From Botryococcus braunii (Eukaryota; Chlorophyta; Trebouxiophyceae), in contig KV908546.1 of assembly GCA_002005505.1 (NCBI GenBank), positions 62,922 to 126,921 on the forward strand: 64,000 nucleotides of DNA, in the 5' to 3' direction. The position numbers were made by a program, and so were the translations under genes. The notes beneath the pieces are model-generated. The model was given only the letters and a program-made list of their open reading frames with translations, did no database searches and had not been told where the DNA came from. Shown here piece after piece: positions 400 to 63,718 of this stretch (position 1 is the stretch's first letter; every line of letters starts with the position of its first letter).

Positions 400-428
400 T
401 ATAGGCAGCAGGCATGAAGGGCTCGGCA
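400..428 (+). promoter_or_regulatory. B LTR TATA-like box and predicted transcription start
   Basis: TATAGGC at 400-406 lies 28 bases before the A at 428, which follows a C (a pyrimidine-purine initiator) and is the first base shared by both copies of the internal repeat. The repeat boundary therefore coincides with a plausible cap site. This is inferred from spacing only. Confidence 0.5.
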
Positions 429-572
429 CTTGTTTGGGACTGAAAGAGCACTCCGGGTGCTTATCTCTGATCAGTTGCCACAAGTGTCAACACATAGTCG
501 GGCTCTGCTTGCTCTCCTACACACAGCAAGAGACCCGACCGAGCTTAACACCCTTCGTGCCGGGACATACAG

Positions 573-900: not shown

Positions 901-925
901 GGAACATTACGCCCAGAATTGTACA

Positions 926-22931: not shown

Positions 22932-23632
22932 TGTAAAAAGTTATGGGCAGTGGCGTATCTTGTAAGCAAGCAGACAGGTCGTAAGTTCCTGCCTCTCCAG
23001 CTACAGTCCTTGACGACTGTCTGCTCTTTAGACACATGCAACTGCATGAACAAGACTGGCATCCTTATGTGCCCAGTATCTTTCCAAACCAATTCCGTTA
23101 CATGTTTATCTGTCAATGAGCATCTACACACGGATAAGCTCCTGACGGCTGAAAGCAAGTACCTTCCTATACTCAATCAAGACTCCGTCCCTTAGCTGTT
23201 TGGGAGACTTGATTGTCCACTAAGATGGTTCACTTACAAACAAGCAATCAAACATGAACACATTACAAATACACACCCTGCGTCACCACACCTGTAAGCA
23301 AGCAGACAGGTCGTAAGTTCGTGCCTCTCCAGCTACAGTCCTTGACGACTGTCTGCTCTTTAGACACATGCAACTGCATGAACAAGACTGGCATCCTTAT
23401 GTGCCCAGTATCTTTCCAAACCAAATGCTCGACTATGCGGTGATCGCAGCTTTAATAGTCCTTTCACACTAACGCGTAATCTAAATCAGATTGTACCTTA
23501 TGTTCGAAATAGACCTCATCCGAACGTGTCTTGAGGTACCTTATGTGGATAGTGGACCCGTATCCTAATAGTGTACATTTGAAGATCACCTAAAGCACAA
23601 GGCATTCTATAATGTATGTTCACAACTCAACA
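22932..23632 (-). repeat. Element I 5' LTR
   Basis: The 701-bp LTR runs TGTTGAGTTGTG...ACTTTTTACA on the minus strand. It has two leader repeats ending CTTACAG, with GTGTGG after the first and GATACGCC after the second. The end of the LTR and the primer site form GCCCATAACT...AGTTATGGGC. Its outer end abuts a plus-strand gag (K), with AAAAC (23633-23637) as the presumed duplication. Confidence 0.9.
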
Positions 23633-24466: not shown

Positions 24467-25161
24467 TGTTAGGTTATGGGCTTGGCGTATTCCTGTGTGG
24501 TGGCAGCACGGAGGGTGTTAGACCAGTGTCGGCTCTACTGTGCGAAGAGAAGTAGAGAAGGAGACACTGTCAATCAAGGACTGATTGGCAACGTGAGTGA
24601 AGCACCCGAAATGCTGTGATAGTCCCAATCAAGTCTATTACAACATGCACTCTATCACTCTCGTAACAACGGAATTCAAACTACCCTAGTCTGTTCTCAC
24701 TCAGTTATGGGCAGTCTCATTGTCCGATGAACGGAAAGTCAAGCACATACACCTAACATGATAAACTAAAAGCGTTCAGAGCCTCAAACAAGCTATCCTA
24801 ACTACACACACATTACCTGTTTGGTGGCAGCACGGAGGGTGTTAGACCAGTGTCGGCTCTACTGTGCGAAGAGAAGTAGAGAAGGAGACACTGTCAATCA
24901 AGGACTGATTGGCAACGTGAGTGAAGCACCTGAAGTGATGTGATAGTCCCAATCAAGTGCCTTGCCTTGCTGCGCAGCCACCACTACCTTCTTGCAACAA
25001 ACGTGTGTGTAACTTGCGTTATTGCTATCCACGTTCAAATGTACACAACCTAGTGCTGAGTCACGTTTATGCCCTATTTGTCTTGTATTATTGTCTCTGG
25101 CGGAATTGCCAATATTACTCCTCTGAGGGAAAGGCACTAAATATTGTTATCTATTACAACA
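24467..25161 (-). repeat. Element M 3' LTR
   Basis: The 695-bp LTR runs TGTTGTAATAG...CATAACCTAACA on the minus strand. Leader repeats (142 bp) are at 24817-24958 (upstream copy, then GTAATG) and 24493-24634 (downstream copy, then GAATACGCC). A polypurine tract follows at 25162-25170 (AAGGGGAAG on the element strand). M's 5' half is beyond the window because O interrupts it. Confidence 0.9.
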
Positions 25162-28119: not shown

Positions 28120-28811
28120 TGTTAGGTTATGGGCTTGGCGTATTCCTGTGCAGTGGCGGCACAGAGGGTGTGAGTCAAAGTTCGCTCTACTGTGTGACGA
28201 AGAGTAGAGTCTAGAACATGAACAATCAAGGACTGATTGGGCAACTTTAAGGAAACACCCGGAGTGCTTGTGAAGTCCCAAACAAGTGTATTACAATTGC
28301 TCACTTGCTCTCTCTTAACAACGGAATTCAAACTATCCTAACTGGTACGTACTCAGAAAGGATCAATCTCATTGTCCGATGATAAGATAGCCAAGCACAT
28401 ACACATAACACGAAATATTAAGGTCAACAAAGCCTCAAATCTCCCAATCTATTCACCATCACGTTACCTGTGCAGTGGCGGCACGGAGGGTGTGAGTCAA
28501 AGTTCGCTCTACTGTGTGACGAAGAGTAGAGTCTAGAACATGAACAATCAAGGACTGATTGGGCAACTTTAAGGAAACACCCGGAGTGCTTGTGAAGTCC
28601 CAAGCAAGTGCCTTGCCTCTCCGTGCTAGCACCACTACCTTCCTGCACTAAACGTGTCTGTAACTTGCGTTATCTTTATCTTCATTCAAATTGTTCCTAA
28701 CCGCTAAGTCTTTGTAGTTTCGCCCATATTAGTCATTTATTATTGTCACTGACGGAATAGCCACTATTACTCCACTGAGGGAAAGGCATAAATAACTCAT
28801 CCAATATAACA
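28120..28811 (-). repeat. N 3' LTR
   Basis: The 692-bp LTR has leader repeats 28468-28609 (upstream copy, then GTAACG) and 28146-28287 (downstream copy, then GAATACGCC). A polypurine tract lies at 28812-28820. Confidence 0.92.
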
Positions 28812-40106: not shown

Positions 40107-40985
40107 TCAAGCATTTCTGCTTGCGGCGTCACCTGCAGTGATGGCACGACGGCAGCGTCACTTCGTAGCCTGTGGGAAAAACCGTCCACGCTACAACGTT
40201 TCCAGGAACAGCACACAGCACTCTCCAACAGTAGAGGTTGGTCAAGGATACCAACATGCTTCGGACAAGTCTTACAAATGATCTTAACTGCTCTCACTCT
40301 TGCTAAAGACCACGTAACACTACGCCTTGCCTGATAGCAGAGTTCAGCACCAAAGAGGCCTTGCGATGTCTACTTTACGTCACTAGAATACAATAATAGT
40401 TCATCAGTAACTCAGCAAGGTCTCTTTGTGATGTTTGTACAGTGAAACTATCTTACCGCCACAACGGTGGACGTCAACATAAGTCTCAATGAGGTCAAAC
40501 ATTCAGTGCGCTCTCGTCATGCACTCTCATCAATGCACACAGCAGTAATATCTAACTGGTCTGAATGTTTGAGCACAATCATATCTGGAACGGCTTTGAG
40601 AATCCTAAACACACCTGCAGTGATGGCACGACGGCAGCGTCACTTCGTAGCCTGTGGGAAAAACCGTCCACGCTACAACGTTTCCAGGAACAGCACACAG
40701 CACTCTCCAACAGTAGAGGTTGGTCAAGGATACCAACATGCTTCGGACAAGTACCGAGCCGTTCCTGGGCTGCCCAGGGATGGCTCGGACTGCAGGGATC
40801 CTAAAGTACTACCATACGTAATGTCTATTGAGAACGCATATCGTACAAGTCACGTGTTATGTCATTGAGGTACGAGTATGATCTATACCGTTCATAAAGG
40901 GCTATAACGGCTATAGTTTACACTGCTGTTGATGGCATGTGACAGGGGATGTCACTAAGTACAGTATTGACCAATTCATTCAACA
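40107..40985 (-). repeat. D 3' LTR
   Basis: 879 bp; minus strand TGTTGAATGAATTGG...AAATGCTTGA, so the end is GA and not CA. Leader repeats (138 bp) are 40615-40752 (upstream copy, then GTGTGTTTAGG) and 40133-40270 (downstream copy, then GTGACGCCGC). A polypurine tract lies at 40986-40995. Confidence 0.95.
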
Positions 40986-41010
40986 CTTCCCCTTGACAGC
41001 ACCCTGTCAC

Positions 41011-44000
41011 CTATGTCATCTTCACAAGTCCAAACCCTCGCCTGTGCATCTGGAAGGCAGGGCGAGCGAGAGGCTTTGTCAGCATGTCTGCCTTGTTCCT
41101 TGCAGACTCCACATAGCAGAGTGTAACCTGCCCCTTTGCAATAGCTTCACGTGCAAAGTGGAAGCACACTGCAATGTGCTTAGTATACTTGCTATACAGT
41201 GGGTTTTTCAGGTTAGCAATGCACCCCTGATTGTCACAGTATAGCTTCACTGACCAAGGAGGAGTTCCGATTTCCTCCATGAACCCACGCAGCCAGTTAA
41301 GCTCCTTAATAGCCAGACTGGTTGCCATGAATTCTGCCTCCACAGTGGAGGTAGCAACTGAGTGTTGCTTCTTACTACCCCAGACCACAGCACTGCCAAA
41401 CACTGATAGCACATATCCCGAGGTAGAATGCCTGCTGTCAATATCGCCAGCATAATCTGCATCAACATGACCTTCTAACACAGGCCCTTTCCCTCCCAGC
41501 ACTAAGACACACTCTCGAGTAGACTGAAGATACCTCAATACCCTCAAGCCCTCATTCATGTGGGCAGTGGTGGGAGCGTTCCGGTAACGGGACAGAACAC
41601 CCACAGCCTGAGCTATATCAGGTCGAGTTGTATTAGCAATATACAACAGAGACCCAACAAGCTCACAATATCTATGCCCGGGAGGCAGTGGAGTCCCAGA
41701 CCCAAAGCTGGTCTCACCCACTGTAACCTGCGGCATCCCAGACATCACAAAGTCTTTACTCATGGGAGTATCGACTGTACGTGACTCAGCACTCACCCCA
41801 AACTTCTCACACAGTGCATCAATCTTAGGCACGCAGCTCAGTGATAAGCACCGATTCTCTCTATCTCTCAGGATCTGGCAGCCCAAGAAGTCCTTGACTT
41901 CACCAAGGTCATGAATCTTGAAGCTTGCCAACAGCTCCTTTTTCACCCATTCTATCTCTTCCGCACCCATTGCCACAATCAAAAGATCATCAACATACAC
42001 AAGCATGTATGACAGCTCCCCATCCTCGTGTCTCTTTATGTAAACTCCCGCATCGCTCTTACACACTTCATATCCCATACTCAGCAGCTTCTCATTCAGG
42101 GTCTTGTGCCAAGCCCTGGGAGCCTGCTTCAGGCCATAAAGGGCCTTACGCAGTCTGCACACAATGTTGGGGTTGCCATTATCAAATCCAGGAGGCTGTG
42201 TCACATACACCTCCTCCTCTAATTCACCATTCAAAAAGGCGGTCTTTATATCCACCTGGTGAATTTCCATGTTCTTTGCTGCAGCAGTTGCTAGCAAAGT
42301 CCTCCTGGACCCATAGCTACTGGTAGGTGCAAAGACCTCATCTACATCAACTCCAGGAATCTGTCTACAGCCCTGGGCTACAAGCCGAGCCTTAAATCTC
42401 AACACGTTCCCATGTGCATCAGTCTTCACAGAGAAGATCCAATGCACAGGGATCACCTTGTGTCCCCTGGGTCTCTCAACGTACTCCATCACCTCGTGCG
42501 CATCAAGAGAATCTTGCTCCTCTTGCATTGCCTGGCGCCAGAATTCCCACTGAGGGGATCTTTGCGCCTCCCTGAGGTTTCCAGGGATTGGCACCTTGGA
42601 CCACCTCACCCCAGGTATCTTACCCTTTACAGGATTCAGATTGTGATCATGCACAACATGGCTATCCTCTCTAGGCTCACACGCACGTGCTTCCACTACT
42701 CTTTCGCTCGAGGTTACTGCGTTACACACCTCTCTGACTCTCTCCCACTCTGGAGGTGTCTGCAGCTTTCTCTCCTTGGAGGATTCACATGCTGCTCCAC
42801 TCAATCTGGGTCTTACATCACTCGTCATGTCCCAAACGCACTCATCACTCAAAGGCGCAGCATAATCTGGCACTGTGCGACACCCTGCAGTGGTGTCTCT
42901 CTCATCCACGCTTGTACTCTCACAACACACCTGTGACTCCCCAGTGTGTCCCTCACAAGCACGCAGAGCCTGGCCATCTGAAGACTCCCTTTGTCCATCA
43001 AGTGTCTGATTGGAAATCTCCAAACTGACCTCTCTTGCCTCACTCTCAGCGCTTACATGATCAGACATGCCCTCCAGCCTGGCCAAGTCCTGTCCATTAG
43101 GCTGAGCTTCCGTTGCTTCCCCTGGGCAAATGGCCTCTGACATTCTCCTATTCTCTCCATCACTCACATCTCCATCATGTTCCACAGTGACCTCAGCTGC
43201 AGTCTCACGTGCTGCTACTCTCTGATCATACCGTTGCTGCCGGGTCAGCCCGTCTTGCCCTCGGACACCCATGGCCCCAACTTCCATTCGAACACATTCT
43301 TGCACATTATTCAAACGTTGTATGTGTGACTTGGTCTCCTCGCCTCCTCGCGCCAGGTTCTCCATGTGTCCGAGTACGGACCAGCTGTGGCCGGACTGCG
43401 TATGGCTCAGCTCCGAGGAAGTGGGCTCCCCGTCCACGTTGACACTTGTAGTCTCAGAATTCTCACAGGGGTTGATTGCACATGGGGTAGTTGCACAGGG
43501 GGTGGTTGCACAGGGGGAGTCAGGTCCGGACTGCTGCACGTTGACCTCTCGGTTGCAGAGAGGCTCAGGATCATCTGAGTCCCAAAAAGACAACTGACCC
43601 AAGGACTGCTGGCCCTCCTGTTGTACAAAAGGCAAGGCAAAGGGCTGCTGGACTGCATTTGGACTCACAGGAGACATGGTGCTAAGCCCCACTCTGTCTG
43701 CGCCCCTTAAGTGCTCCAGAAAGGTAACATCTCTGCTTTCTTTCCAAATCCCGTTTCCCATATAAATTCTATATGCCTTTGACACACTGGAATACCCTGT
43801 GAAGAGACCAGGGGAGGTCTTAGACTCAAACACTCCCCTTTGGTGATCAGGTATGTGCACATGTGCTAGACAGCCAAAAGTCCTGAGCAGGGATACATCG
43901 GGCTTTACCCCATGGAAGGCTTCATAAGGCGTCTTGTCACGTCCAGTCACAGGTCCCATATTGTACAGGATGCAGGCTGTCTCCACTGCTTCCTTCCAGA

Positions 44001-46161
44001 GTGACTGTTTGGCAGCTGCATGCAACATGAGTGTTCTGGCCTTCTCCTTGATTGTTCGGTTCATCCGTTCAGCAACGCCATTTTGCTGAGGCGTGTATGC
44101 TGCAGAGGTCTCAAATTTAATTCCCTCCTGCGTACAGAAACCCTTCAATGTACTGTTGAGGAATTCTGTCCCCCTGTCAGTACGAATGCACTTAACAGAG
44201 CGGTTCAACTGCCTCTGCCAAAAAATCAGGAGGTCTCTGACTGCACTGCTGATTGCATCCTTGGTTTTTACTGCCAGGGCTATGACGTAGTGCGTAGCCT
44301 CATCCACAATCGTGACAAAGAAGCGCTCCCCAGTAATAGCTGTAGGGGAGATGGGGCCAACTGTGTCCAAATGAATTCTCTCAAGGGGCTCAGTGGCTGC
44401 TCTGGAACTGGTTCCAAAAGGGGGACGACTGTGCTTTCCTTGAATGCACGCTTCACACGAAGAGTGACAGTTTGCGCAAGGGGAGAGAGATACAGGGATG
44501 CCCAGGACCAAATCTTCAGACTGCAGTCGCCTCATATTAACCTCCCCTGGGTGCCCCAGTCTACTGTGCCACAGTGCTCTCAATCTGCAATCATGAGCGA
44601 CTGGTGCTCTGGCTGTGTTAACAAACACAGAGACAGGGTTTCTGACTGGACTGACCTTCTGCAAGAAATACAGGCCATTTCTCTGTGCAACTGAACAAGA
44701 CCAGTTTTGAGCGCCACGCATACCAGTGTAACTTCCCACACTGTCTGTCACAAAACTAGCCCCATCACGTATAGCAGCTGTCACTGAAATCAGATTAGCT
44801 GTAGCTGAAGGAACACAATGCACATTGTGAAGCCACAGGGGTTGCTGTTCTGCACTGCTCAAGCACAGGGAACCAGTTGCAATTATCTGTCCCGTGGCAT
44901 CTGACGTAGCCATATGCAAAGGAATGGGATTTCTGTGCAGGGTGGGGGAATGTAGCAGGGACAGATCATTGACTAGGTGGATGGTGGCTCCACTGTCCAC
45001 CAGAAAACTTCTCGCTTCTGGCATGACGCGTGTTGGTGTTAAGACATTCAGAGAAATCATGGCAGACATACCAGAGGGTGGTGGATATCCCCCGGGGAAA
45101 AAGTTGTTGCCGTTCCCGCTGCCCTCCGGAGGTCGAGCCACTGCAGCCGACGCTTGATTTTGGAATTGCGGAAGCAGATTGGCCATTGCAGCCATGACTT
45201 GCTGCAGGTTCTGTTGCATCTTCTCGTCCGCCTCCTTCTTGAGGCAGTTCCTCTCAAAATGGCCTAGCTTGTTGCAGTAGCGGCAGCGCCTGTTGTCACG
45301 CCGGTCCCGTCCCTCCACCTTGGTCGATGAAGCTTGGCCCCCCTGGCCTCCAGCTTGGGTCTCCTGTGGGCTTGCAGTCCCTGGTGTGGTGGAGTAGGCT
45401 GGTGTGATGGCTGCCCTGGCCACAGGGGTGACTCTGGGGACCTGGTCGTTGAAGCCCAGTCCCTTGGCTGTGGTGGAGATGATCTCCCACAGTCCCTCCA
45501 GATCCTTCCCAGCAGATGAGGAGAACATCCCAGTCTCCTTCGCTTCCTCTGGCAGGCCCTTGATGATTGCCAGCTTGGCTTCTCTCTCCATGATGGAGTG
45601 CCCATTTCGCTTGAGTGCATGGAAGAGTGCCACCTTCCTGTTGTAGTAGTCCTCCAACGTTTCTGTCTCTCCCATGCTGGTGTGTAGGAGCTCCAGCCAG
45701 CGTGCTGTTACCTCCTGGTCTGCCCCTCCAGTAAAACGCTCTCGAACCCACTGGTAGGCATTGGCTGCCACTTGCATTGCAGCCAGCTTGGCACCCCACG
45801 CCTTGGGGACGCTCTCAATCAGCATTAGGAGCGCTGCTGCATTCTCCTCTGTGTCTGGCATTGGAGCTTCAATGGCTGCCTTGCACCTTTTGAGGCCACA
45901 GGCTGCCACATATGCCAGATCCCAGAGTGGAAATTCCACTCCCTCTCTGTCCAGAGTCACTGGACATTTGACATTCGTGGTGACGACGCCACCGGTTTTC
46001 GTCATTGCGATGCACATCTCTCCACTCTGCGCAGTGGAGTTTGCTGGCTGGCTGGGTGATGCACTGATGGAGGAGCCAGACCCAGCTGATCCAGACTCCG
46101 TTGCAGTGCGCTTACTTCTCGTTTTCATGATCACTTGTCTGCTTCTAGTTTTCATGATCAA
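41011..46161 (-). CDS. gag-pol: D gag-pol polyprotein, full length
   Basis: 1716 codons without a break. Approximate domain positions: Gag 60-240; zinc knuckle CRYCNKLGHFERNC 291-305; protease FLVDSGATIHLVN around 388; integrase zinc domain WHSRLGHPG with CANC and CEAC, 530-570; integrase core HLDTVGP (about 596), RTDRGTEF, then Glu in TPQQNGVAERMNR. A linker of about 400 residues with DECVWDMTSDVRPRLS follows. RT has FKARLVAQGCRQIPGVDV and YVDDLLIVA (about 1390); RNase H has DADYAGD (about 1567), STVEAEF and YCDNQGC. The first 20 residues hold a short repeat (IMKTRS twice). All catalytic residues I can check are present, so activity is possible. Confidence 0.95.
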   Translation of the reverse strand: MIMKTRSRQVIMKTRSKRTATESGSAGSGSSISASPSQPANSTAQSGEMCIAMTKTGGVVTTNVKCPVTLDREGVEFPLWDLAYVAACGLKRCKAAIEAPMPDTEENAAALLMLIESVPKAWGAKLAAMQVAANAYQWVRERFTGGADQEVTARWLELLHTSMGETETLEDYYNRKVALFHALKRNGHSIMEREAKLAIIKGLPEEAKETGMFSSSAGKDLEGLWEIISTTAKGLGFNDQVPRVTPVARAAITPAYSTTPGTASPQETQAGGQGGQASSTKVEGRDRRDNRRCRYCNKLGHFERNCLKKEADEKMQQNLQQVMAAMANLLPQFQNQASAAVARPPEGSGNGNNFFPGGYPPPSGMSAMISLNVLTPTRVMPEARSFLVDSGATIHLVNDLSLLHSPTLHRNPIPLHMATSDATGQIIATGSLCLSSAEQQPLWLHNVHCVPSATANLISVTAAIRDGASFVTDSVGSYTGMRGAQNWSCSVAQRNGLYFLQKVSPVRNPVSVFVNTARAPVAHDCRLRALWHSRLGHPGEVNMRRLQSEDLVLGIPVSLSPCANCHSSCEACIQGKHSRPPFGTSSRAATEPLERIHLDTVGPISPTAITGERFFVTIVDEATHYVIALAVKTKDAISSAVRDLLIFWQRQLNRSVKCIRTDRGTEFLNSTLKGFCTQEGIKFETSAAYTPQQNGVAERMNRTIKEKARTLMLHAAAKQSLWKEAVETACILYNMGPVTGRDKTPYEAFHGVKPDVSLLRTFGCLAHVHIPDHQRGVFESKTSPGLFTGYSSVSKAYRIYMGNGIWKESRDVTFLEHLRGADRVGLSTMSPVSPNAVQQPFALPFVQQEGQQSLGQLSFWDSDDPEPLCNREVNVQQSGPDSPCATTPCATTPCAINPCENSETTSVNVDGEPTSSELSHTQSGHSWSVLGHMENLARGGEETKSHIQRLNNVQECVRMEVGAMGVRGQDGLTRQQRYDQRVAARETAAEVTVEHDGDVSDGENRRMSEAICPGEATEAQPNGQDLARLEGMSDHVSAESEAREVSLEISNQTLDGQRESSDGQALRACEGHTGESQVCCESTSVDERDTTAGCRTVPDYAAPLSDECVWDMTSDVRPRLSGAACESSKERKLQTPPEWERVREVCNAVTSSERVVEARACEPREDSHVVHDHNLNPVKGKIPGVRWSKVPIPGNLREAQRSPQWEFWRQAMQEEQDSLDAHEVMEYVERPRGHKVIPVHWIFSVKTDAHGNVLRFKARLVAQGCRQIPGVDVDEVFAPTSSYGSRRTLLATAAAKNMEIHQVDIKTAFLNGELEEEVYVTQPPGFDNGNPNIVCRLRKALYGLKQAPRAWHKTLNEKLLSMGYEVCKSDAGVYIKRHEDGELSYMLVYVDDLLIVAMGAEEIEWVKKELLASFKIHDLGEVKDFLGCQILRDRENRCLSLSCVPKIDALCEKFGVSAESRTVDTPMSKDFVMSGMPQVTVGETSFGSGTPLPPGHRYCELVGSLLYIANTTRPDIAQAVGVLSRYRNAPTTAHMNEGLRVLRYLQSTRECVLVLGGKGPVLEGHVDADYAGDIDSRHSTSGYVLSVFGSAVVWGSKKQHSVATSTVEAEFMATSLAIKELNWLRGFMEEIGTPPWSVKLYCDNQGCIANLKNPLYSKYTKHIAVCFHFAREAIAKGQVTLCYVESARNKADMLTKPLARPAFQMHRRGFGLVKMT

Positions 46162-46440
46162 GCCAGTTCTTCACTCCAAGCCTTAAATGACTTCCCCTGG
46201 AAGCACTTCTTCCTAGCTCTGACACTGAGTTGATCAGTCCCAGAAGTACTTCTGCTTTCCCAGCCCAGTTGCTACTGTACAACAATTCCTTCCAGCACTA
46301 CAGAAGGAATAATTTTACGTGACTAGCTCGATATGTTTGAACGGCCAGACCTCACTCGTCAGTGAAGCTCGCAGTCTCGAAGCGGGGTCCGAAACCCCTT
46401 TTCTCCCTGGAAATCTGTCGTGCGTCACTGCAAGCTCAGC

Positions 46441-46463
46441 TTGGAAAGCGTGGGCCCATAACC
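46441..46463 (-). promoter_or_regulatory. D primer-binding site (half initiator tRNA-Met)
   Basis: Minus strand GGTTATGGGCCCACGC abuts the LTR. Plus-strand AGCTCAGCTTGGAAAGCG just before it extends the tRNA-like match toward the D-arm, less well than in F and I. Confidence 0.78.
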
Positions 46464-47342
46464 TCAAGCATTTCTGCTTGCGGCGTCACCTGCAGTGATG
46501 GCACGACGGCAGCGTCACTTCGTAGCCTGTGGGAAAAACCGTCCACGCTACAACGTTTCCAGGAACAGCACACAGCACTCTCCAACAGTAGAGGTTGGTC
46601 AAGGATACCAACATGCTTCGGACAAGTCTTACAAATGATCTTAACTGCTCTCACTCTTGCTAAAGACCACGTAACACTACGCCTTGCCTGATAGCAGAGT
46701 TCAGCACCAAAGAGGCCTTGCGATGTCTACTTTACGTCACTAGAATACAATAATAGTTCATCAGTAACTCAGCAAGGTCTCTTTGTGATGTTTGTACAGT
46801 GAAACTATCTTACCGCCACAACGGTGGACGTCAACATAAGTCTCAATGAGGTCAAACATTCAGTGCGCTCTCGTCATGCACTCTCATCAATGCACACAGC
46901 AGTAATATCTAACTGGTCTGAATGTTTGAGCACAATCATATCTGGAACGGCTTTGAGAATCCTAAACACACCTGCAGTGATGGCACGACGGCAGCGTCAC
47001 TTCGTAGCCTGTGGGAAAAACCGTCCACGCTACAACGTTTCCAGGAACAGCACACAGCACTCTCCAACAGTAGAGGTTGGTCAAGGATACCAACATGCTT
47101 CGGACAAGTACCGAGCCGTTCCTGGGCTGCCCAGGGATGGCTCGGACTGCAGGGATCCTAAAGTACTACCATACGTAATGTCTATTGAGAACGCATATCG
47201 TACAAGTCACGTGTTATGTCATTGAGGTACGAGTATGATCTATACCGTTCATAAAGGGCTATAACGGCTATAGTTTACACTGCTGTTGATGGCATGTGAC
47301 AGGGGATGTCACTAAGTACAGTATTGACCAATTCATTCAACA
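46464..47342 (-). repeat. D 5' LTR
   Basis: 879 bp, partner of 40107-40985; no difference noticed. A 133-codon plus-strand ORF in it has no support as a gene. Confidence 0.95.
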
Positions 47343-47347
47343 CAAAG

Positions 47348-49143: not shown

Positions 49144-49593
49144 TGTAGTGAGATGCCGCGTCAGCGCGACGCGTCTCACGTAGGATGTGCGCGTAGTTCA
49201 TGTTTCTTCGTGCCCTTTGGGATACGAGTAGATCTCGTTGTCCTTGTGTGTAGGAAAATGACTGTAATATCCTAGTGGGTCTCCTCTCGTCATCCATATC
49301 GTTATGCTCGCGAGAGCATCTCGTAGAGGGACGACGTAGCCGGATCCGCGCATAGGTGGACTAGGAACTCGGGTGGCGATCATTGTCTTTGGGTTTGCTG
49401 CTACGAGTGAGACATCTAGCATTCTCTACATTGTTCATTATATATTGTTCTTTGGAGACTCGGACGACCTGCGTGAGGAGGGCTGCGAACTTGTAACGGA
49501 TTGGAACTTCGATTTCTACCTTCGGTGTCACCCTTGCCTGAGCCCCTTGCTTAGCTTGTTATAAATCTTAGTTACACGTCTCACTTCGTTAAA
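49144..49593 (+). repeat. G1 3' LTR
   Basis: 450 bp, TGTAGTGAGATG...CTTCGTTAAA. It differs from the 5' LTR at a handful of bases and short indels (start, middle and near TGTCAACC/TGTCACCC). It is followed by CAGTG and N's pol. Confidence 0.94.
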
Positions 49594-51630
49594 CAGTGAG
49601 AACGAAGCCGGTGGTGGAGAAACGGTGGTCTTGATCCCCACCGTAATCAGCATCAACATATCCCTCCAACTCTGTTTCTTTTCCACCAAGGATCAGAACC
49701 AGGTCTCGGGTTCCCTTAAGATATTTCAACACACGGATTGCTTCATTCCAGTGTGCTGTTGTGGGTGACATCCTGTACCTCGACAGAACTCCTACAGCCT
49801 GGGATATATCAGGACGAGTGGTGTTAGCTATGTAGAGTAGTGACCCTACTAACTCACAGTATCGATGACCAGGAGGCAGAACACTCCCAGCACCAATACT
49901 ATCATTCCCATCCTTTGGTGCAGGCATCTGAGACATTACAAAATCTTTTGTCATTGGGGTATCGGGCCCAACTGACTCAAGATCAAGACCAAACTTCTCC
50001 ACAAGTGCATCTATCTTAGGAATGCAACTCAAGGAGATTAACCCCTTCTCTCTATCTCTCATGACTTGACAACCTAAGAAATCCTTCACTTCCCCTAGAT
50101 CGTGGATGGTGAATTCTTTCTTGAGAAGCTCTTTCACTCTCTCCACCTCTGACATGCCCTTGGATACAATCAAGAGATCATCTACATAAATTAGCACGTA
50201 GGATTTACCCCCATCTTCAGAGCATCTCACATAAACTCCAGCATCACTCTTGCACACCTCATACCCCATGACTTCAAGTTTGTCATTAAGGGTTTTGTGC
50301 CAGGCACGTGGGGCCTGCTTAAGGCCATACAGTGCCTTTTTGAGTCGACACACGGTATTGCGATCACCATTCTCAAATCCAGGAGGTTGCGTTGCATACA
50401 CTTCTTCCTCCAGCTCACCATTGAGAAAGGCTGTCTTAACATCTACCTGGTGAATCTCATAACCTTCCCTAGCAGCCACAGCTAACAAGGTTCTCCTAGC
50501 TCCATAGCTGCTGGTTGGTGCAAAGACCTCCATGACATCTACTCCAGGAATTTGTCGACAACCCTGAGCAACCAATCTTGCCTTGAATCTCAACACATTG
50601 CCATGTGCATCCATTTTCACTGAGAAAATCCAGTGAACTGGTATTACCTTATGCCCATGAGGTCTGGGAACATATTCCATAACCTCATGGGTGTCTAATG
50701 AATTCTGCTCTTCTTGCATAGCAGCCTTCCAGTATTCCCACTGAGGAGACATCTGAGCTTCTCTTAAATTAGAGGGAACATGGGTTTTACCAAATCTAAC
50801 ACCAGTGTGCTTCCCCTCCTCTCCCTTACCCTTGGGAGAATCGTTGGTTGCACCCTCAGAACCCACTACTCTTCCACTGACACTCGCCGCACTACAGCTA
50901 GCTTTTCTCTCAGTGGTATCAGAGCTTTCTCTCATGCTTCTCTCTCTCTTGGATTCGCACCTCGCACTGCTCAACTTGTTGCCTCGCACGCTCACATCTT
51001 CCTCCCAAACACAGGTACCTCCCGGGAAGCATCCATAGTCCGGAGGTTTCTCACATTGTCTGAGCTTCCGGTTCACCTCCACATCCACACTCTTACACAT
51101 CCTCTCAAGCTCAGGCTCTTGAGGGCTCTCACAGGCAGAGGGAGGTGGGCTCTGGTCGCCCCTTTGCTTCCCCTCCCTTTCTTGACTTGTATGTCTCTGA
51201 CTTCCACGTTGTGTCACAAGAGACTGTGACCTCTCATCCCTGACATCCTTCTCCGATACACAGGTACCTCTCAGGCTGCACTTGTAATTTGGTGGTACCA
51301 CACATTGTCCGTGCACCTGATTCACCTCCTCTTATCGGCTCTCACACAAGCACTGGGATGCTGACCCAGTACTGCTCGCACAGACATTTCTGGCTGTTTC
51401 CGAGAGAATGGAATGACTCTTCTCAGGACTGTGGCTGTCACCACCTTCCCCTAGCAGTCCACGCCACTGATGGGGAGTGCCAGATGTTTCCACACAAGTC
51501 CCACCACTGACATGAAGCTCATTCACTGGACAGGACCCACCCGTGCAACTCAGCTCCCTGGGACCATTTGCAGTCATGATTGTGGCTGCCCCCCTCTCAT
51601 CACTAACATGAAAATCAGGGCTCTCAGACT
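49594..51630 (-). pseudogene. pol: N pol: linker, RT and start of RNase H, between G1 and P
   Basis: From 51325 to 49594 the minus frame is open. Two linker repeats (CSLRGTCVSEKDVRD, CFPGGTCVWEEDVSV) lead to CSAASVSGRVVGS, then a full RT (GKHTGVRFGKTHVPSNLREA, FKARLVAQGCRQIPGVDV, YVDDLLIVSKG) and RNase H to DADYGGD and GFVLTV. A TAA near 51331 follows CESR, so the upstream linker (51332-51630) is separated by a stop. It joins 29221 on one side and 59454 on the other. Confidence 0.92.
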
Positions 51631-52039
51631 GGCACTGTTGTGTAAACTGATAGGTACGTATAGATACGTGATGGCAAACGTACAAGGGTACTATCAGTTT
51701 AACCTGTGGTTTTAGGAAACATTGTATAACTAGAACCTCTCCACGTGTGGAGTACAAGAAAGAGGATGCGCCTGATTGCGTTTCTAGGGTTAATGTATTG
51801 TGATCAGTTTGGTTGATCATATAGAGACCTCCATGCAGTACAGGTCTTGTACTGGTGACGATGTGTCACAAGTAATAGACTCCAGTGAGCGTGTACACGT
51901 GTATAAGTTCAGGATTTGTGGTACAGTTGTAAGGCTACACGATGGCATAGGGCCGTGTCAGGGTTGTTTATGTGACCATGCAGTACGGTACAGCCTCTCG
52001 AAAGGAACTGTCCCGTTACCGCCGGTTACGATCAGGAGG

Positions 52040-52072
52040 TATAGAAACGCCAGATCACGAGCAAGCTTGGCA
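52040..52072 (+). promoter_or_regulatory. P LTR TATA box and predicted transcription start
   Basis: TATAGAAA at 52040-52047 lies 32 bases before the A at 52072, which follows a C. The spliced copy at 52741 starts at exactly the equivalent base, as it would if it were copied to the 5' end of a capped RNA. Confidence 0.6.
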
Positions 52073-52713
52073 GTCTCGATGGGGTGTGGAATGCATCTGG
52101 GCTTCGAACTCCAAGCTGAATAGTGTTTGCTCTGTATTGAAGGACTGCTTGATATACTGCTGTCACATTCATTTCAATACAGGTAAGCTTGCGATCGCTG
52201 GCAAGGGTAACGGTCGCAGTCGTGTGGCTGCGATCGTAGACGTTAAGCACATGCATACTGATGTTTCTGCTGATTATGAAACATTACATGTGTCTTGTGT
52301 TGCAGGAGCTGCATTGCTTGTATGTTACTGTTGTGCGAACAGTAAGGCTATTTGTGTGTGACGAGTTGCACACTGGTTATAGCGGTGAGTACAGATACGT
52401 ATAACAAGCATGCTCCTGCTGGTTAAATAACTGTTTTGTTTTGATCTCTGATGATCCACATATTGTGCAGATTGGTTGGGAGTAGCCATTAAACTCCTGG
52501 GACTGCTGAAGGGCCAAGGGTGTCCTGATCGGAGAGCAGTCGGTACGTACACATATGTGGATAGGTTGCGTGTGTGTTTTATGTGGTTTAGATATATTTT
52601 ATGGACACTGATGAACCCACAAGTAAATCGTAACGCTCGGGTGCAGGCAGATATAGACGGCAGTGCGAGCACTGGTCTATATAGACATTGAGAGTACTTG
52701 GTGGTGTTCACAG
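52072..52713 (+). other. P leader unit with three GT...AG introns
   Basis: Exon-like blocks: 52072-52182 (111 bp), 52306-52384 (79), 52471-52542 (72), 52647-52713 (67). Introns between them: 52183-52305 (GTAAGC...TTGCAG, 123 bp), 52385-52470 (GTGAGT...GTGCAG, 86 bp), 52543-52646 (GTACGT...GTGCAG, 104 bp). A fourth donor, GTAAAT, follows at 52714. The blocks are defined by the intronless copy at 52741-53069, which has the same lengths. No ORF runs through the joined blocks, so I take it as an untranslated leader. Confidence 0.85.
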
Positions 52714-52740
52714 GTAAATATACGTAAACCATTTGTAACG

Positions 52741-53069
52741 AGTCTCGATGGGGTGTGGAATGCATCTGGGCTTCGAACTCCAAGCTGAATAGTGTTTGCT
52801 CTGTATTGAAGGACTGCTTGATATACTGCTGTCACATTCATTTCAATACAGGAGCTGCATTGCTTGTATGTTACTGTTGTGCGAACAGTAAGGCTATTTG
52901 TGTGTGACGAGTTGCACACTGGTTATAGCGATTGGTTGGGAGTAGCCATTAAACTCCTGGGACTGCTGAAGGGCCAAGGGTGTCCTGATCGGAGAGCAGT
53001 CGGCAGATATAGACGGCAGTGCGAGCACTGGTCTATATAGACATTGAGAGTACTTGGTGGTGTTCACAG
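52741..53069 (+). repeat. P spliced (intronless) copy of the leader unit
   Basis: Four blocks join directly: 52741-52851, 52852-52930, 52931-53002, 53003-53069. Lengths match the upstream blocks and I see no base difference. All three joints fall at GT...AG intron ends of the upstream unit. The copy ends TTCACAG and continues GGGATACG, so its end can serve as acceptor for the fourth donor (52714), giving a 356-bp intron that contains this copy. Confidence 0.85.
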
Positions 53070-53138
53070 GGGATACGTCTCTCTTCATGCAAACGGACCG
53101 CTGACGGTTACGGCAGCCTCCACTCAATACACTACAAA

Positions 53139-53153
53139 GGTCATGGGCCCACC
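53139..53153 (+). promoter_or_regulatory. P primer-binding site, variant
   Basis: GGTCATGGGCCCACC begins two bases after the LTR. It equals the half-tRNA site of the other copias except C for T at position 4. Confidence 0.65.
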
Positions 53154-53162
53154 GCTCGTTGC

Positions 53163-53622
53163 ATGCAAGACGACGACGTCATCCTGATAGAAGACACTAG
53201 AGAGAAAAGAGCCACGCGGGGCCGTACGGTCAGTGGGGCTGCAGATAGAGTCAGAGTGGTAAAGATACACTCAGAAAGACAAGTGGTTACTGATTAGTAG
53301 CCAGCAGTACAGTGAGAGAGCAGCTGCAAAACAGGCGAGCGGGCTCGGGGTTTGAGACGACTGGATGGAGCTACATCGACAATTGGCTCCATTAGACAAC
53401 ATCGGATACGGCTTGCAACCTGGAGAGTTGTGCATGTGGCAATGGGGATGCACCTTCTCATTGGTTGTGGCCAAGCCAAATGATGTGTCATTTGAAAGAT
53501 GGGGTTGTTGTTTGTATGCTTGCTTCAGGGGTGGTTGTTGTGAAAATGCTGGTTGGCGTGAAAGAGCGCAGTTGCATTTGATATCATTGATGTGTGGTGA
53601 TGTGGAGTTTCAGCCAGGGTGA
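53163..53622 (+). other. P leader-proximal short ORFs
   Basis: A 44-codon ORF (53163-53297, starting MQDDDVILIEDTREKR) and an 85-codon ORF (53368-53622 from the ATG after GACTGG) lie where gag should start. The second is Cys/Trp-rich and ends LISLMCGDVEFQPG. That end resembles the GDVExNPGP (2A-like) motif found near the start of some retrotransposon proteins, but with Gln for Asn and a stop after Gly. Neither matches a Gag known to me. Coding is uncertain. Confidence 0.35.
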
Positions 53623-56600
53623 TTACATAATTCACATCACGGTGCATGGTACCAGATGTACTTTGGGAGCGTGATTTGGTGCTGTGTGAAGATCAAAATG
53701 TTGGGAGATTGCATGCAAGAGGAGTGAGTGGCTTCTTGTGAAGTTGTTGAAGCTATTATATCAGAGGCATGTGATGACTGGGTTTTGTTGATATCATGTT
53801 CATTGTTGAGTGAACATTGGAGTTCAAAATCCTTAGTGTATGTCAATCACTTAAAAGCGTGAGTCAGTTTTGGCATTGTGAAGCAATGAAGTGGAGGGAA
53901 TATGGCTGGTCTGACTGGGCTGGCATGAGTAAAAGTGAGCATGACACTAATTTTGAGTTGCATTGATTGAGGATGCAGGGGAAGAGGATGGCTGGCGGGC
54001 TCATTGAGTACCTCAAAGCAACTCCTGCTGGCTGGCGGGCTCATTGAGTACCTCAAAGCAACTCCTGCTGGAGCTGGCCCCACGATGAGGTGTCATTGGG
54101 GGCACATCCTCTCGGGCGGTCTACAGTTTCTTCTGTAGGTTTGTCCTATTGATGTTAGGATTTAAGCCTGAACCAAGAAAAAGAAAAGGGGGCTCTTGGC
54201 AGGAGCCTACTTGGTGTCGAAGAGACAGTGATAATGAGTATGTGCAAGTTATGTATGTACATGGGCTGAGTTACATGATACTAGATTGGGTGTAGAGTTA
54301 GTATGAATTGTCTCTGGTGCACATTCATGTGCATGTGTGTGTTGTAGGATAGTGCAGCACATGCATATCTTAATCAACAGAGGGACTTGTTGATCAAGAT
54401 AAGATATATAGGGTTGAGTGAGGATGAGAAATTGCATGGCAGCAACTAGAGCCTAAAAGTGTGTGAGCTGAGTATGCTGTCCAAATGTGGGAGTGTTTGG
54501 GCCAAAGCTGATGCATAATTGGGTCATGAGAAGTTTAAAAGTTATCGGTGCGATCACGCGTTTAGGTGGTGAAGACTGGCTTTGCACCAAATTATTAGTG
54601 CTTTACCATGATGGCTTAAGGTAATGGCAATTGTCTTCAAACCTTGTGCCCAGATCTATGAAAGGGGAAATCAGAGTGGTTAGCGCAGAAATATTGAAGT
54701 GAGTAGGTTTCAGGTTATCGTTGCGTAAACGTGTGGGTTTCCAAGACTCAGGTTCTTGCCCGGAAGAGGGAGGGGAGTTTTGGGAGACGCAAAGAAGTGT
54801 ACCTGGGGCTCAGAAAGTTGAGATGTGAGATCCTTCAAGCTCTACACCATCAGTTTTGAAAGTACAGAGGATTTCAAGTTGATTATGGGACTGATCATGA
54901 TCCAGAGAGAGTAGACTTGGGAAGGAAAAATTGTGCAGGGTAGTGGAAATCTGGTATTCCTTTGAGGGTTCTGGGGAAGATGTAAATGTTAGTACTGCAT
55001 CAGGTTGTGGTACATAAAGGGTGAAATCTGGATTAGATGATAAAGAATTGTTGGGGTACATGAGTTGTGATAAAAACACTTGGAACACATTCACAGTGAT
55101 GGGATGGGTTGCAGTAGAAAGAGGGTGCTCTTCACATCAAAAACAAAAGAGGAAGGGGATGACAAGAAATGCTTAAATTTTGCTCAACAGTTGGTAGCAG
55201 AGTTAGAGCATCCATGGTGCATTTTGGTTCAAAAGGTTTAAACATAGAGGAGGGAAGTTCATGCCAAATTGGACTGAGGTATCCTAGTATGGAGTAGGCA
55301 TTTAATCCTCCTAATGTTGTGGTTGGGAATCCAAGAAAACAAAGGGATGAGATATTTCCTGTCTTGTTTTTGGTTGGTTTAGATGTTTAGGCATGTAGCT
55401 GAGAGTCAGGGGTAGGACTCAAGAAGCTGTACTTGCTTAAAACTCCTTGGAGACAGCATGTTTCGATCAACTCATATGTCATGAGGGATGTGCCTGTGTG
55501 TATGTTTACACTAGCACCATGATCTGAAGATTTACATATGGCTGGATTGCCAGGTCATGCTTATGATTACGATTGCATGTGTTAAGATGGGGCATCTGTT
55601 CTTGTTGAGAGCAGTTGCTGCCTTAATGGTGAGTATTTGTTGGAATATTGGTGCAAGGGGGACCATTCTGATGAGAGGCTGGTCACTTCCTTGTTTCCTG
55701 TGACAATTTTCTGACAAGATAAGACATGATGTTGATTGGAGTATTGAGGTGGGGATGGGCCATGATGTGTGATGGCTGGAATACTCTTGTGTGTGTGACA
55801 GACAACCTTTTGAGGTGAAATCTAGTTGAGAAGATACTGCACATTGTTAAGGATTGTAATTTTTCCTCCAGGGTAGTCAACTTAATTCTACAATCTTCTG
55901 TAGAGTTGTTAAGATTTTGGTTAAAATTGGAAAGGGGTTGTGGCTGGTTAAGTGCTTTCAGACATCGTTGCGCTGGTGCGCAGCGTGCAAGATTGCCACT
56001 AGAAACACTTGGAAAGAGGTCTTTTAGTGTGGCATTACGGTTGAGATAATTTTTAGAAAATACTTAGACAATTTGGTGTGAACTGAGTGTTCTCCTGGTC
56101 CTGAATGGCTCAGGGAGGCCTTGTAGCTCTTACTGCACAGAAAAACGTGCTAGGTCTAGTTCTCACACGTTAGTGAGAGAGACTGCACGTCGATTTCTGG
56201 TTTTACGGTTCGACTCGAGTGAGTTCGAGTGGTAGTCACGCGGTTTTAAGCTTGACACTCCGCGTCGAATCGTGAATTTTGTTGATCGGGGTACTGTTCG
56301 ATACTCCGGACGATTCGTGGTTCGAATCTCCTAAGTTGTTTTTACCACTTGAGTTCGAGTGGTAGTCACGCGGTTTAGGCTGAAGACTCCGTGTCGAAGT
56401 GTGAATTCTGTTGATCGAGGTACTGGTCGATACTCCGGACGATTCGTGGTTCGAATCTCTTAAGTTGTTTTAACCTCATGATTTATCTCAGCCATGGTTA
56501 TTGGCTGGGACCTTGCTGAGGATCTTTTGTGTTTTGGCCCTTGAACATTTGGTCACTGTGTGTGTGTGCCGTGCATCTCCCCAGGGTTTGAGGGGAGGTA

Positions 56601-57154
56601 TTTGGAAACACTTAAGTATGTACTGACAGCCTTGTTTGTTGTCGGCGCTGAGCTCTCTACTGGTTGGTTGAGTACAATGGTAGAACTCATTAATTGGATT
56701 GCATTGCAGTTTGTTGCATGATATGCATGTTGTTTGCAGGTACTGGAGTGTACCTGGAAACTATATAGTGGTTTTAACAATAGAAGTGTTGGTTGGGGAC
56801 TGCTAATTTGTAGTCCCGCGCTTCTGGTTATTCAAGCTTTGTGAATTGAGGTGGTTGGCACCTTATGGTAGAGGGTTGGTTCTGCTAACAACGGTGGTTC
56901 TAGACTAGTAAGTAATGCTAAGAGTGCTCGTATCTTTCTTGAAGGGGGAAGGGACAGCATGTAGTACATGTTTGTGTTGTGGTCATCAAAGAAAAAGTTG
57001 TACTTTGGATTCTTGCTGTGTTCCAATGCCAGGATGAGTACCGGTCGGGGGAAGCAAAGGAACACGGAAGCAAGAAGTTGGTACGAAGTATTCTCAGATC
57101 TTTGGGGAAGAGAATGCGGGTTCTGGATCTTCACGGCCGGACCGACACCGGTAC
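53623..57154 (+). other. P interior, unidentified non-coding DNA
   Basis: About 3.5 kb without a convincing ORF on either strand, rather G/T-rich on the plus strand, unlike the flanking coding elements. Visible structures: a perfect 40-bp tandem duplication (53991-54030, 54031-54070), a 14-bp-stem inverted repeat (54366-54401), and a 130-bp tandem repeat (56221-56474). It may be captured host DNA or decayed element sequence. Confidence 0.5.
56221..56474 (+). repeat. Tandem 130-bp repeat with tRNA-like boxes in P
   Basis: Two diverged copies start at 56221 and 56351 (GAGTTCGAGTGGTAGTCACG). Each has a hairpin (ACGCGG...CCGCGT in the first) and GGTTCGAATCTC (56319 and 56448), which is a good pol III B box. 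The loops TTTAAGC and TTTAGGC look like leucine tRNA anticodon loops, and TTCGAGTGGTAGTCACGCGG resembles a tRNA-Leu D-arm. Spacing is too long for a tRNA without a long intron, so I call it tRNA-like only. Confidence 0.35.
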
Positions 57155-57804
57155 TTGGAGCTCATCGGATCGCTGCAATATTTGGCCAATATCACACGGC
57201 CAGACATCTCACATGCAGTTAGCCTGCTGGCACGTTATCGTGCAGCCCCAACCACTGCACACATGCGTGCAGGGTTGAGGATTGTGAGGTATCTGTTAGG
57301 TACCAAGGATACGGGATTGGTGTACGAAGGAAAGGGGAAGCAAAGTCTGACTGGCTTTGTTGACTCTGATTTTGCGGGGGATGTTGATACAAGAAAATCA
57401 ACACCGGTTTCGTGTTCATGCTAAATAGGGGAGCAGTGTCGTGGGGAAGTAAGAAGCAACAATCAGTTGCGACTTCAACTGTTGAGGCCGAGTTTATTGC
57501 GGCAAGTCACGCAATAAAGGAAGGTGTGTGGCTTGGGAGCTTGTTGGAGGAGCTTGGTCAGGCAGTGTCGGGTGTAGAATTGAGGATGGACAACATGGGT
57601 TGTATTGCAAATCTGCAGAACCACGTGTTGTCCAAATACACCAAGCACATTAGCGTGTGCTATCATCAAGCGAGGGAGAAGGTTGCATGGGGGCAAATCA
57701 CGCCAGTGTACGTCAGCACAGAAGACAATGTGGCTGATATTTTCACAAAGCCGTTGGCCGGTCCTGTCTTCCCCAAGCACCGTGACAGCTTGAGAATGGG
57801 TTAA
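57155..57804 (+). pseudogene. pol: P RNase H remnant
   Basis: ELIGSLQYLANITRPDISHA through YLLGTKDTGLVYEGKGKQ and DSDFAGDVDTRKST is copia RNase H. A one-base loss near 57405 (before GFVFML) shifts the frame. It continues RGAVSWGSKKQQSVATS, STVEAEF, MDNMGCIANL and NVADIFTKPL to a stop at 57804. RT upstream is missing. Sequence is diverged from all other copias here. Confidence 0.9.
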
Positions 57805-57947
57805 CCCTAGAGAGTTGAAGTTCTAGGGCTTTAGGGCTTTAGGGCTTCACAGTGCCTAAGGTAACTCGGAAGAGTAGTGCGTTGACTGGAACAATTGAAC
57901 TCATCATTATTGAACGTTGTTATAAATGTTTTCTAAAAGGGGAAGAT
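57805..57947 (+). other. P 3' untranslated tail and polypurine tract
   Basis: It contains three near-perfect CTTTAGGG-like units (57832-57848) and, just before the LTR, AAAAGGGGAAGA, the polypurine tract. Confidence 0.65.
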
Positions 57948-59448
57948 TGTTGTGTAAACTGATAGGTACGTATAGATACGTGATGGCAAACGTACAAGGG
58001 TACTATCAGTTTAACCTGTGGTTTTAGGAAACATTGTATAACTAGAACCTCTCCACGTGTGGAGTACAAGAAAGAGGATGCGCCTGATTGCGTTTCTAGG
58101 GTTAATGTATTGTGATCAGTTTGGTTGATCATATAGAGACCTCCATGCAGTACAGGTCTTGTACTGGTGACGATGTGTCACAAGTAATAGACTCCAGTGA
58201 GCGTGTACACGTGTATAAGTTCAGGATTTGTGGTACAGTTGTAAGGCTACACGATGGCATAGGGCCGTGTCAGGGTTGTTTATGTGACCATGCAGTACGG
58301 TACAGCCTCTCGAAAGGAACTGTCCCGTTACCGCCGGTTACGATCAGGAGGTATAGAAACGCCAGATCGCGAGCAAGCTTGGCAGTCTCGATGGGGTGTG
58401 GAATGCATCTGGGCTTCGAACTCCAAGCTGAATAGTGTTTGCTCTGTATTGAAGGACTGCTTGATATACTGCTGTCACATTCATTTCAATACAGGTAAGC
58501 TTGCGATCGCTGGCAAGGGTAACGGTCGCAGTCGTGTGGCTGCGATCGTAGACGTTAAGCACATGCATACTGATGTTTCTGCTGATTATGAAACATTACA
58601 TGTGTCTTGTGTTGCAGGAGCTGCATTGCTTGTATGTTACTGTTGTGCGAACAGTAAGGCTATTTGTGTGTGACGAGTTGCACACTGGTTATAGCGGTGA
58701 GTACAGATACGTATAACAAGCATGCTACTGCTGGTTAAATAACTGTTTTGTTTTGATCTCTGATGATCCACATATTGTGCAGATTGGTTGGGAGTAGCCA
58801 TTAAACTCCTGGGACTGCTGAAGGGCCAAGGGTGTCCTGATCGGAGAGCAGTCGGTACGTACACATATGTGGATAGGCTGCGTGTGTGTTTTATGTGGTT
58901 TAGATATATTTTATGGACACTGATGAACCCACAAGTAAATCGTAACGCTCGGGTGCAGGCAGATATAGACGGCAGTGCGAGCACTGGTCTATATAGACAT
59001 TGAGAGTACTTGGTGGTGTTCACAGGTAAATATACGTAAACCATTTGTAACGAGTCTCGATGGGGTGTGGAATGCATCTGGGCTTCGAACTCCAAGCTGA
59101 ATAGTGTTTGCTCTGTATTGAAGGACTGCTTGATATACTGCTGTCACATTCATTTCAATACAGGAGCTGCATTGCTTGTATGTTACTGTTGTGCGAACAG
59201 TAAGGCTATTTGTGTGTGACGAGTTGCACACTGGTTATAGCGATTGGTTGGGAGTAGCCATTAAACTCCTGGGACTGCTGAAGGGCCAAGGGTGTCCTGA
59301 TCGGAGAGCAGTCGGCAGATATAGACGGCAGTGCGAGCACTGGTCTATATAGACATTGAGAGTACTTGGTGGTGTTCACAGGGGATACGTCTCTCTTCAT
59401 GCAAACGGAACGCTGACGGTTACGGCAGCCTCCACTCAATACACTACA
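57948..59448 (+). repeat. P 3' LTR
   Basis: 1501 bp. Intron-bearing leader unit 58384-59025 (blocks 58384-58494, 58618-58696, 58783-58854, 58959-59025) and spliced copy 59053-59381. Differences from the 5' LTR include A/G at 58368, C/A at 58727, T/C at 58878 and C/A at 59410 (positions by offset of 6312). Confidence 0.93.
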
Positions 59449-59453
59449 GGCAC

Positions 59454-63027: not shown

Positions 63028-63718
63028 TGTTAGGTTATGGGCTTGGCGTATTCCTGTGCAGTGGCGGCACGGAGGGTGTGAGTCAAAGTTCGCTCTACTG
63101 TGTGACGAAGAGTAGAGTCTAGAACATGAACAATCAAGGACTGATTGGGCAACTTTAAGGAAACACCCGGAGTGCTTGTGAAGTCCCAAACAAGTGTATT
63201 ACAATTGCTCACTTGCTCTCTCTTAACAACGGAATTCAAACTATCCTAACTGGTACGTACTCAGAAAGGATCAATCTCATTGTCCGATGATAAGATAGCC
63301 AAGCACATACACATAACACGAAATATTAAGGTCAACAAAGCGTCAAATCTCCCAATCTATTCACCATCACGTTACCTGTGCAGTGGCGGCACGGAGGGTG
63401 TGAATCAAAGTTCGCTCTACTGTGTGACGAAGAGTAGAGTCTAGAACATGAACAATCAAGGACTGATTGGGCAACTTTAAGGAAACACCCGGAGTGCTTG
63501 TGAAGTCCCAAACAAGTGCCTTGCCTCTCCGTGCTAGCACCACTACCTTCCTGCACTAAACGTGTCTGTAACTTGCGTTATCTTTATCTTCATTCAAATT
63601 GTTCCTAACCGCTAAGTCTTTGTAGTTTCGCCCATATTAGTCATTTATTATTGTCACTGACGGAATAGCCACTATTACTCCACTAAGGGAAAGGCATAAA
63701 TAACTCATCCAATATAAC
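63028..63718 (-). repeat. N 5' LTR
   Basis: 691 bp, partner of 28120-28811. Two 142-bp leader repeats, each ending CTGCACAG on the minus strand, the first followed by GTAACG and the second by GAATACGCC. Flanked by GAAAC (63719-63723). Confidence 0.92.

Follow-up and report, generated by a model that had tools for sequence, protein, structure and literature searches.

The window analysed here, 64,000 nucleotides of Botryococcus braunii contig KV908546.1, contains an LTR retrotransposon, P, recognizable by paired TG..CA repeats, a target-site duplication and, as read by eye, a primer-binding site and a polypurine tract (Table 1). Of the Ty1/Copia pol, with its RVT_2 reverse transcriptase and RNase H, P retains a remnant only: positions 57038–57424 are 53% identical over 100 amino acids to a window Copia protein (49589–51325) that has RVT_2, and the stretch 57388–57804, assigned by eye, gave no match to that protein in a protein comparison. 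For a gag-pol of its own, P has no ORF of 150 amino acids within 53137–57947, the longest stop-to-stop frame being 138 amino acids. Judged by its sequence P is a Copia-type, non-autonomous element, and with only this remnant it would have to use the proteins of another element. A neighbouring element in the window has integrase before reverse transcriptase, as in Copia; among the 120 relatives listed for the Copia reverse transcriptase of the window, few of them named, are sequences from Chlorella, Pleodorina and Volvox (41–44% identity) and from Tanacetum (35–36%). The primer-binding sites of P (AAGGTCATGGGCCCAC) and of some other families (GGTTATGGGCCCAC) resemble the half-tRNA initiator-Met site of Drosophila copia. 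Small tandem repeats lie in the non-coding interior of P (40 bp × 2 at 53989–54071 and 129 bp × 2 at 56220–56475). The P LTR had no match in a phage collection (near-mode search) and the Copia reverse transcriptase of the window no relative among IMG/VR contigs; seven IMG/VR contigs matched by two DNA patterns were discarded as chance matches, four having no internal repeats and three sharing one 77% repeat of another layout.

Table 1. Features of element P and of the other LTR families with tandem R blocks (window coordinates)
Feature	Positions	Strand	Remarks
Target-site duplication GGCAC, left	51631–51635	+	Partner at 59449–59453
5' LTR of P, 1501 bp, TG..CA	51636–53136	+	4 mismatches to 3' LTR
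TATA-like GTATAGAA, 33–26 nt upstream of R1	52039–52046	+	Score 6.1; 95th percentile of random positions, 3.3
R1 exon E1, 111 bp	52072–52182	+	Putative transcription start at first A
Intron 1, 123 bp	52183–52305	+	GTAAGC..CAG
R1 exon E2, 79 bp	52306–52384	+	
Intron 2, 86 bp	52385–52470	+	GTGAGT..CAG
R1 exon E3, 72 bp	52471–52542	+	
Intron 3, 104 bp	52543–52646	+	GTACGT..CAG
R1 exon E4, 67 bp	52647–52713	+	CAG at end
Spacer X, 27 bp	52714–52740	+	Putative donor GTAAAT first; TGTAA at 52734–52738; last 2 nt hypervariable
R2, four joined exons	52741–53069	+	CAG at end; X+R2, putative intron 4
U5 remainder, 67 bp	53070–53136	+	
Primer-binding site AAGGTCATGGGCCCAC	53137–53152	+	Read by eye
Copia RT/RNase H remnant	57038–57804	+	57388–57804 by eye only; element mostly non-coding
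Polypurine tract CTAAAAGGGGAAGAT	57933–57947	+	Read by eye
3' LTR of P, 1501 bp	57948–59448	+	Layout as 5' LTR
3' LTR subparts	R1 from 58384; X 59026–59052; R2 59053–59381; U5 59382–59448	+	
Family A (Copia): R1, 183-bp X, R2	428–901	+	Second LTR at 7018–7491
Family B, R1-X-R2	8308–8775	+	
Family C, R1-X-R2	14620–15101	-	
Family D, R1-X-R2	16080–16542	-	
Family E, R1-X-R2	17449–17913	+	
Family E, second copy	22961–23424	-	CAG at R2 end lost
Family F, R1-X-R2	24492–24958	-	
Family G, R1-X-R2	28145–28609	-	Also 63053–63518 (-)
Family H, R1-X-R2	40130–40752	-	1716-aa ORF 41011–46161; other LTR 46487–47109

Each P LTR is ordered U3, R1 (E1-i1-E2-i2-E3-i3-E4), X, R2 (the four exons joined) and the U5 remainder. 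At 329 bp (111+79+72+67), R2 is identical to the R1 exons with no base gained or lost, and each exon block is present in the window in four copies, all identical. The preliminary description had reported the sizes of blocks and gaps, the GT..AG ends of the gaps and base-exact joints (52072–52713 against 52741–53069), all of which proved right to the base; as it had also stated, the 3' LTR repeats the structure, the offset being +6312. It had also held that three intron-exact joints could hardly be due to chance; with GT..AG expected in this window at 0.004 per gap, the figure for three gaps is about 7 × 10^-8. Splice sites, and the GT that opens X, are unchanged in all 40 P LTR copies first compared (38 genome loci plus the two window LTRs). 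Because the loci had been chosen as top matches to intron-bearing R1, the presence of introns in them is a selection effect; R2 lay outside the query and follows R1 in 40/40.

The spacer X of P has GT at its start and TTTGTAACG at its end. Because X starts GTAAAT after the CAG of E4, and R2 ends in CAG before U5, X+R2 could be a fourth intron, and the CAG of the last exon would then double as donor-exon end and acceptor. Removing all four introns on paper gives E1-E2-E3-E4-U5, the same letters as R2-U5. The junction 52713/53070 proposed earlier accordingly fits the sequence (CAG/GTAAAT ... CAG/GGGATA), the joint itself being putative.

The host genome (176 Mb, 989 contigs) holds 130 matches to the unspliced E1/i1 joint and 116 to the spliced E1/E2 joint, one mismatch allowed. 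We fetched 78 P stretches, plus three more; the main table comprises 67 P LTR copies in 50 insertion groups, with columns containing a gap or N skipped. Groups were set by contig and spacing, and C257a/b, C230a/b and C41z/C41outer may each be one insertion. Twenty loci were picked as atypical, six of which entered the table along with L069, while fourteen that were truncated or rearranged were left out. Copying of R2 from R2 should pass on any difference between the two blocks, and remaking it from R1 should put each new allele in both. Nine base alleles occur in at least three groups of the 67-copy table and are found in both R1 and R2, save in the recombinant C630 and in C365a, where R1 has a new change at one such site. 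Over ten sites, including a 2-bp deletion, the R1 and R2 haplotypes are identical in 44/50 groups (first copy per group), against a mean of 5.4 and a maximum of 15 in 10,000 shuffles; the groups that differ are C630, C365a, C184c, C477b, C163b and C129, the last two with gaps. There are 88 discordant changes, 43 in R1 and 45 in R2. Discordant alleles at the same site and with the same base in two groups number seven, against 4.3 expected by chance (p = 0.12), so a small fraction of R1–R2 differences may be inherited.

Divergence gives the same reading. In 17 P elements with both LTRs (one of them, C41outer, may sit in a tandem array), R1 and R2 differ at 27/11142 positions (0.00242) and the 5' and 3' LTRs at 57/24967 (0.00228; Fisher p = 0.81), so R1 and R2 are about as old as the insertion, as though the cycle that produced it had made them equal. 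Inheritance in family A follows the P pattern in the 15 of 16 loci scored (L078, with an incomplete R2, was left out): 7/15 copies carry allele 59A in R1 as well as R2, none has it in one alone, and each discordant R1/R2 difference is confined to one LTR. In family H the R1 and R2 blocks are identical in 16/16 and hence uninformative on inheritance. The copy comparison supports a scheme in which R2 would be remade from the R1 exons at or near each cycle. It likewise favours the earlier suggestion that first-strand transfer brings a spliced 5' leader onto a 3' LTR that is unspliced. The structure had been read in one element, a reading that holds for P and can be widened: the copies indicate renewal in every cycle, or nearly so, and nine LTR families of the window have the layout.

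The X/R2 border of P carries what looks like a footprint. Between TTTGTAA and AGTC the groups have CG, CC, TG, CCG, CT, G, TC or C; at the two final X positions, 10 and 11 of 50 groups depart from the modal base, against six changes at the other 25 X positions together (p = 5 × 10^-20), and the 12 nt before R1 vary in 0/50. Untemplated or misread bases at cDNA ends are a known tendency of Ty1 and retroviruses, and at the end of a strong-stop cDNA they would give such a border; the cDNA end in P seems to land at R2, though its sequence is that of the R1 exons. The variable border is limited to P, which speaks against generality: in family A it is constant in 15/15 copies (the base before R1 being C in 7 and T in 8), and family H has no border variation in 16/16.

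These data bear on the strongest competing account, in which the tandem was formed once by spliced-cDNA transfer and then inherited, its two sets of exons being kept alike by gene conversion or template switching. Recombination is real at these loci (the triple copy of L047, the loss of X+R2 from one LTR in L055) and plain inheritance fits families A and H, whose R2 border does not vary. Yet R1–R2 divergence corresponds to insertion age and no R1–R2 difference is clearly inherited, which would require conversion to be all but complete every cycle, and the hypervariable border of P is not predicted. We regard this account as improbable.

The layout recurs in nine LTR families of the window, P included, all Copia or presumed Copia (B, F, G and H are not each tied to a tested Copia protein). 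They were found through tandem blocks in a self-comparison of the window, a procedure that leaves Copia LTRs without a tandem uncounted; among the families so defined, and read in the sense direction, R1 ends CAG/GT in 9/9 and TGTAA lies 1–6 nt upstream of R2 in 9/9, with further TGTAA upstream in some. The background rates per position in the window are 0.0012 for CAGGT and 0.0009 for TGTAA. X measures 27 bp in P and 179–344 bp in the other eight families, and R2 ends in CAG and runs into U5; family H is an exception in that its U5, too, starts with GT. As a control, two copies of a presumed Gypsy LTR in the window have no internal repeat. Family D is abundant in the host genome (40 scored of 950 candidates). 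The 16 fetched LTR loci of family H (40107–47343 in the window, minus strand) have identical R1/R2 blocks and its spacer matches at 100% in 40 scored loci; the family is a very recent or ongoing burst.

Chlorophytes use UGUAA (TGTAA) as their main poly(A) signal, with a peak near -17 from the cleavage site (PMC1868727). Given where TGTAA stands in X, the RNA should then end about 10 nt into R2, and the nine-family layout is tied to a poly(A) signal inside the putative last intron. A TATA-like score above the 90th percentile was found before R1 in only 5/9 families; of these five, four have no such box before R2, while R2 of P has one too. A rival reading is that transcription starts at R2, R1 and its introns being an upstream relic within U3. 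R2 does sit at the ordinary place of a U3/R border, with TGTAA just upstream and, in P, a variable border. However, a start at R2 predicts that R2 derives from R2 and diverges from R1, the opposite of what is seen, and where a TATA-like box precedes R1, as in five families, R2 lacks one in four. We consider a start at R2 very improbable.

We propose instead, and hold to be very likely from the sequence comparisons, that each round of replication rebuilds part of the P LTR from spliced RNA. Transcription of the provirus would start at the first base of R1. The 5' leader would be spliced at introns 1–3 and at intron 4 (X+R2, with the CAG at the end of R2 as acceptor) to give E1-E2-E3-E4-U5, and splicing of intron 4 would also take the TGTAA poly(A) signal of X out of the 5' end. 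The RNA of the 3' LTR would stay unspliced and be cleaved about 10 nt inside R2, leaving a very short terminal repeat. Transfer of the spliced-leader strong-stop cDNA to this cleaved end would yield U3-R1-X-(spliced copy of R1)-U5, an outcome for which the copy comparison argues; R2 would be remade from R1 and so not be inherited from R2. Transfer to the long R1 homology instead would produce a spliced-only LTR without TGTAA, probably unable to propagate, and the missing poly(A) site would be the reason why spliced-only LTRs are rare. For the other eight window families we propose a version with one leader exon.

Rare products among the genomic copies can be set against this scheme. In the chimera L065, U3 and R1 come from one subfamily and R2 and U5 from the other, as a transfer from one RNA to a second would directly produce. 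After a further cycle, R2 should follow R1 and not the adjoining U5; each of three R haplotypes with R1 = R2 is indeed found with both kinds of U5 (C25z versus C193 and others; C3 versus C355; C286/C257a/C257b versus C413a, C517 and C31). The U5 of C3 has three differences from that of the window. The U5 shared by C286, C257a, C257b and C48z differs at 9–11 of 67 positions from the window's and at 24–27 from the other kind, and because they share it the four may represent a single lineage and not independent events.

P LTRs with the spliced unit only, which the preliminary description had suggested looking for, are present among the loci fetched. Three elements have the form U3-E1E2E3E4-U5: both LTRs of L048/L049, with an intact target-site duplication (CCTCC), and the fetched LTRs of L061 and of L064, whose partner LTRs were absent where they had been expected (neither L067 nor L068 matched an LTR). 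They carry three different subfamily haplotypes and so probably arose separately; in one of the three, L064, one base is lost just upstream of E1, where a footprint is expected. TGTAA was not found in the scanned stretch of the three, and these elements without it look like dead-end by-products. DNA recombination between E1 and E1' is another possible source of spliced-only LTRs, so these elements are support, short of proof. They also make it scarcely credible that R2-like blocks came first and R1 later gained three introns by insertion of introner-like DNA: green algae are known for introners, but the intronless LTRs carry the haplotypes of intron-bearing subfamilies and hence look derived, which is not the pattern of segments inserted by mobile elements that had been named as the contrary result, and single-exon families and changes common to R1 and R2 would stay unexplained.

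Several other loci were looked at and set aside. L055 has neither X nor R2, but it forms the 5' end of an element with a normal 3' LTR, L069, and since the two share the target-site duplication CAGAC it represents a later deletion. L047, with three R copies, was considered as a product retaining intron 4; its downstream flank is common to L057 and L058, and as this looks like a duplicated locus, in which unequal exchange is as likely, it was kept out of the evidence. Contig C163 has three LTR loci with a shared 3' flank (L047, L057 and L058), one arranged R1-X-R2-X-R2 and two starting inside E4. On contig C41, four P LTRs (L029, L040, L044 and L103) stand about 6.7–7.0 kb apart, L040 and L044 with a polypurine tract on one side and a primer-binding site on the other; by sequence, the C41 elements seem to form a tandem LTR-internal-LTR-internal array. 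Poly(A) tails captured after TTGTAA..ACTTG were sought, and the eleven overlapping matches obtained all fell at one place, in unrelated sequence. At G000:C66:450306-450357 (-), a site unrelated to these LTRs, about 20 A in a row stand 26 nt beyond a TTGTAA; this may be a retrocopy with a captured poly(A) tail. RNA folding around X gave no structure beyond that of shuffles.

P resembles Ty1/Copia elements (Pseudoviridae) in its TG..CA LTRs, 5-bp duplication, polypurine tract and remnant of a Copia reverse transcriptase. It departs from them in the LTR itself: the textbook form is U3-R-U5, with one R inherited as LTR sequence and copied as such, whereas P has R twice, unspliced and spliced, and its second R tracks R1 and appears to be remade each cycle. 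We know of no foamy virus LTR with a spliced second R. PMC3694450 describes a splice donor in the foamy virus LTR upstream of the poly(A) signal, which spares the 5' poly(A) site, and, unlike in the scheme for P, a suppression that works through U1 snRNP binding independently of splicing. The window families are alike in that their LTR transcript would have its donor ahead of the poly(A) signal, to judge by the letters alone (CAG/GT before TGTAA in 9/9). HTLV-1/BLV-type retroviruses have a splice donor in R and share with the P scheme a splicing event within the repeated region, but their genomic RNA stays unspliced and each LTR has just one R. Processed retrocopies and recycled spliced-leader cDNAs also set DNA copied from spliced RNA beside unspliced sequence; those are stray insertions, whereas the copy in P is an integral, renewed part of the LTR. 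Chlamydomonas has a split-LTR transposon, TOC1. The preliminary description had known of no LTR with this layout, and neither a spliced second R nor an LTR rebuilt by splicing turned up in the PMC literature searched (titles and abstract openings, with subscription papers mostly outside it).

Normally one expects the genomic RNA of a retroelement to escape splicing and its LTRs to be copied faithfully; the scheme for P would be a new form of LTR-retrotransposon replication. We think it likely that it stands for a separate mode of LTR-element replication, in which splicing of the genomic RNA would be obligatory, the 5' repeat spliced and the 3' not, the redundancy about 10 nt, and the LTR assembled from two RNA forms every cycle, the intron and the poly(A) signal being kept because products losing them cannot propagate; the mode would be an old trait of a whole Copia clade in a green alga. 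For annotation there is a caution, that tandem blocks inside LTRs may be exons. The comparison of R1 with R2 would provide a second insertion-age clock inside each single LTR, and the border footprints of P, the chimera and the dead-end products would be a natural, genome-readable record of first-strand transfer. If the scheme is true, splicing is built into LTR synthesis in these elements and solves the problem of a poly(A) site present in both LTRs.
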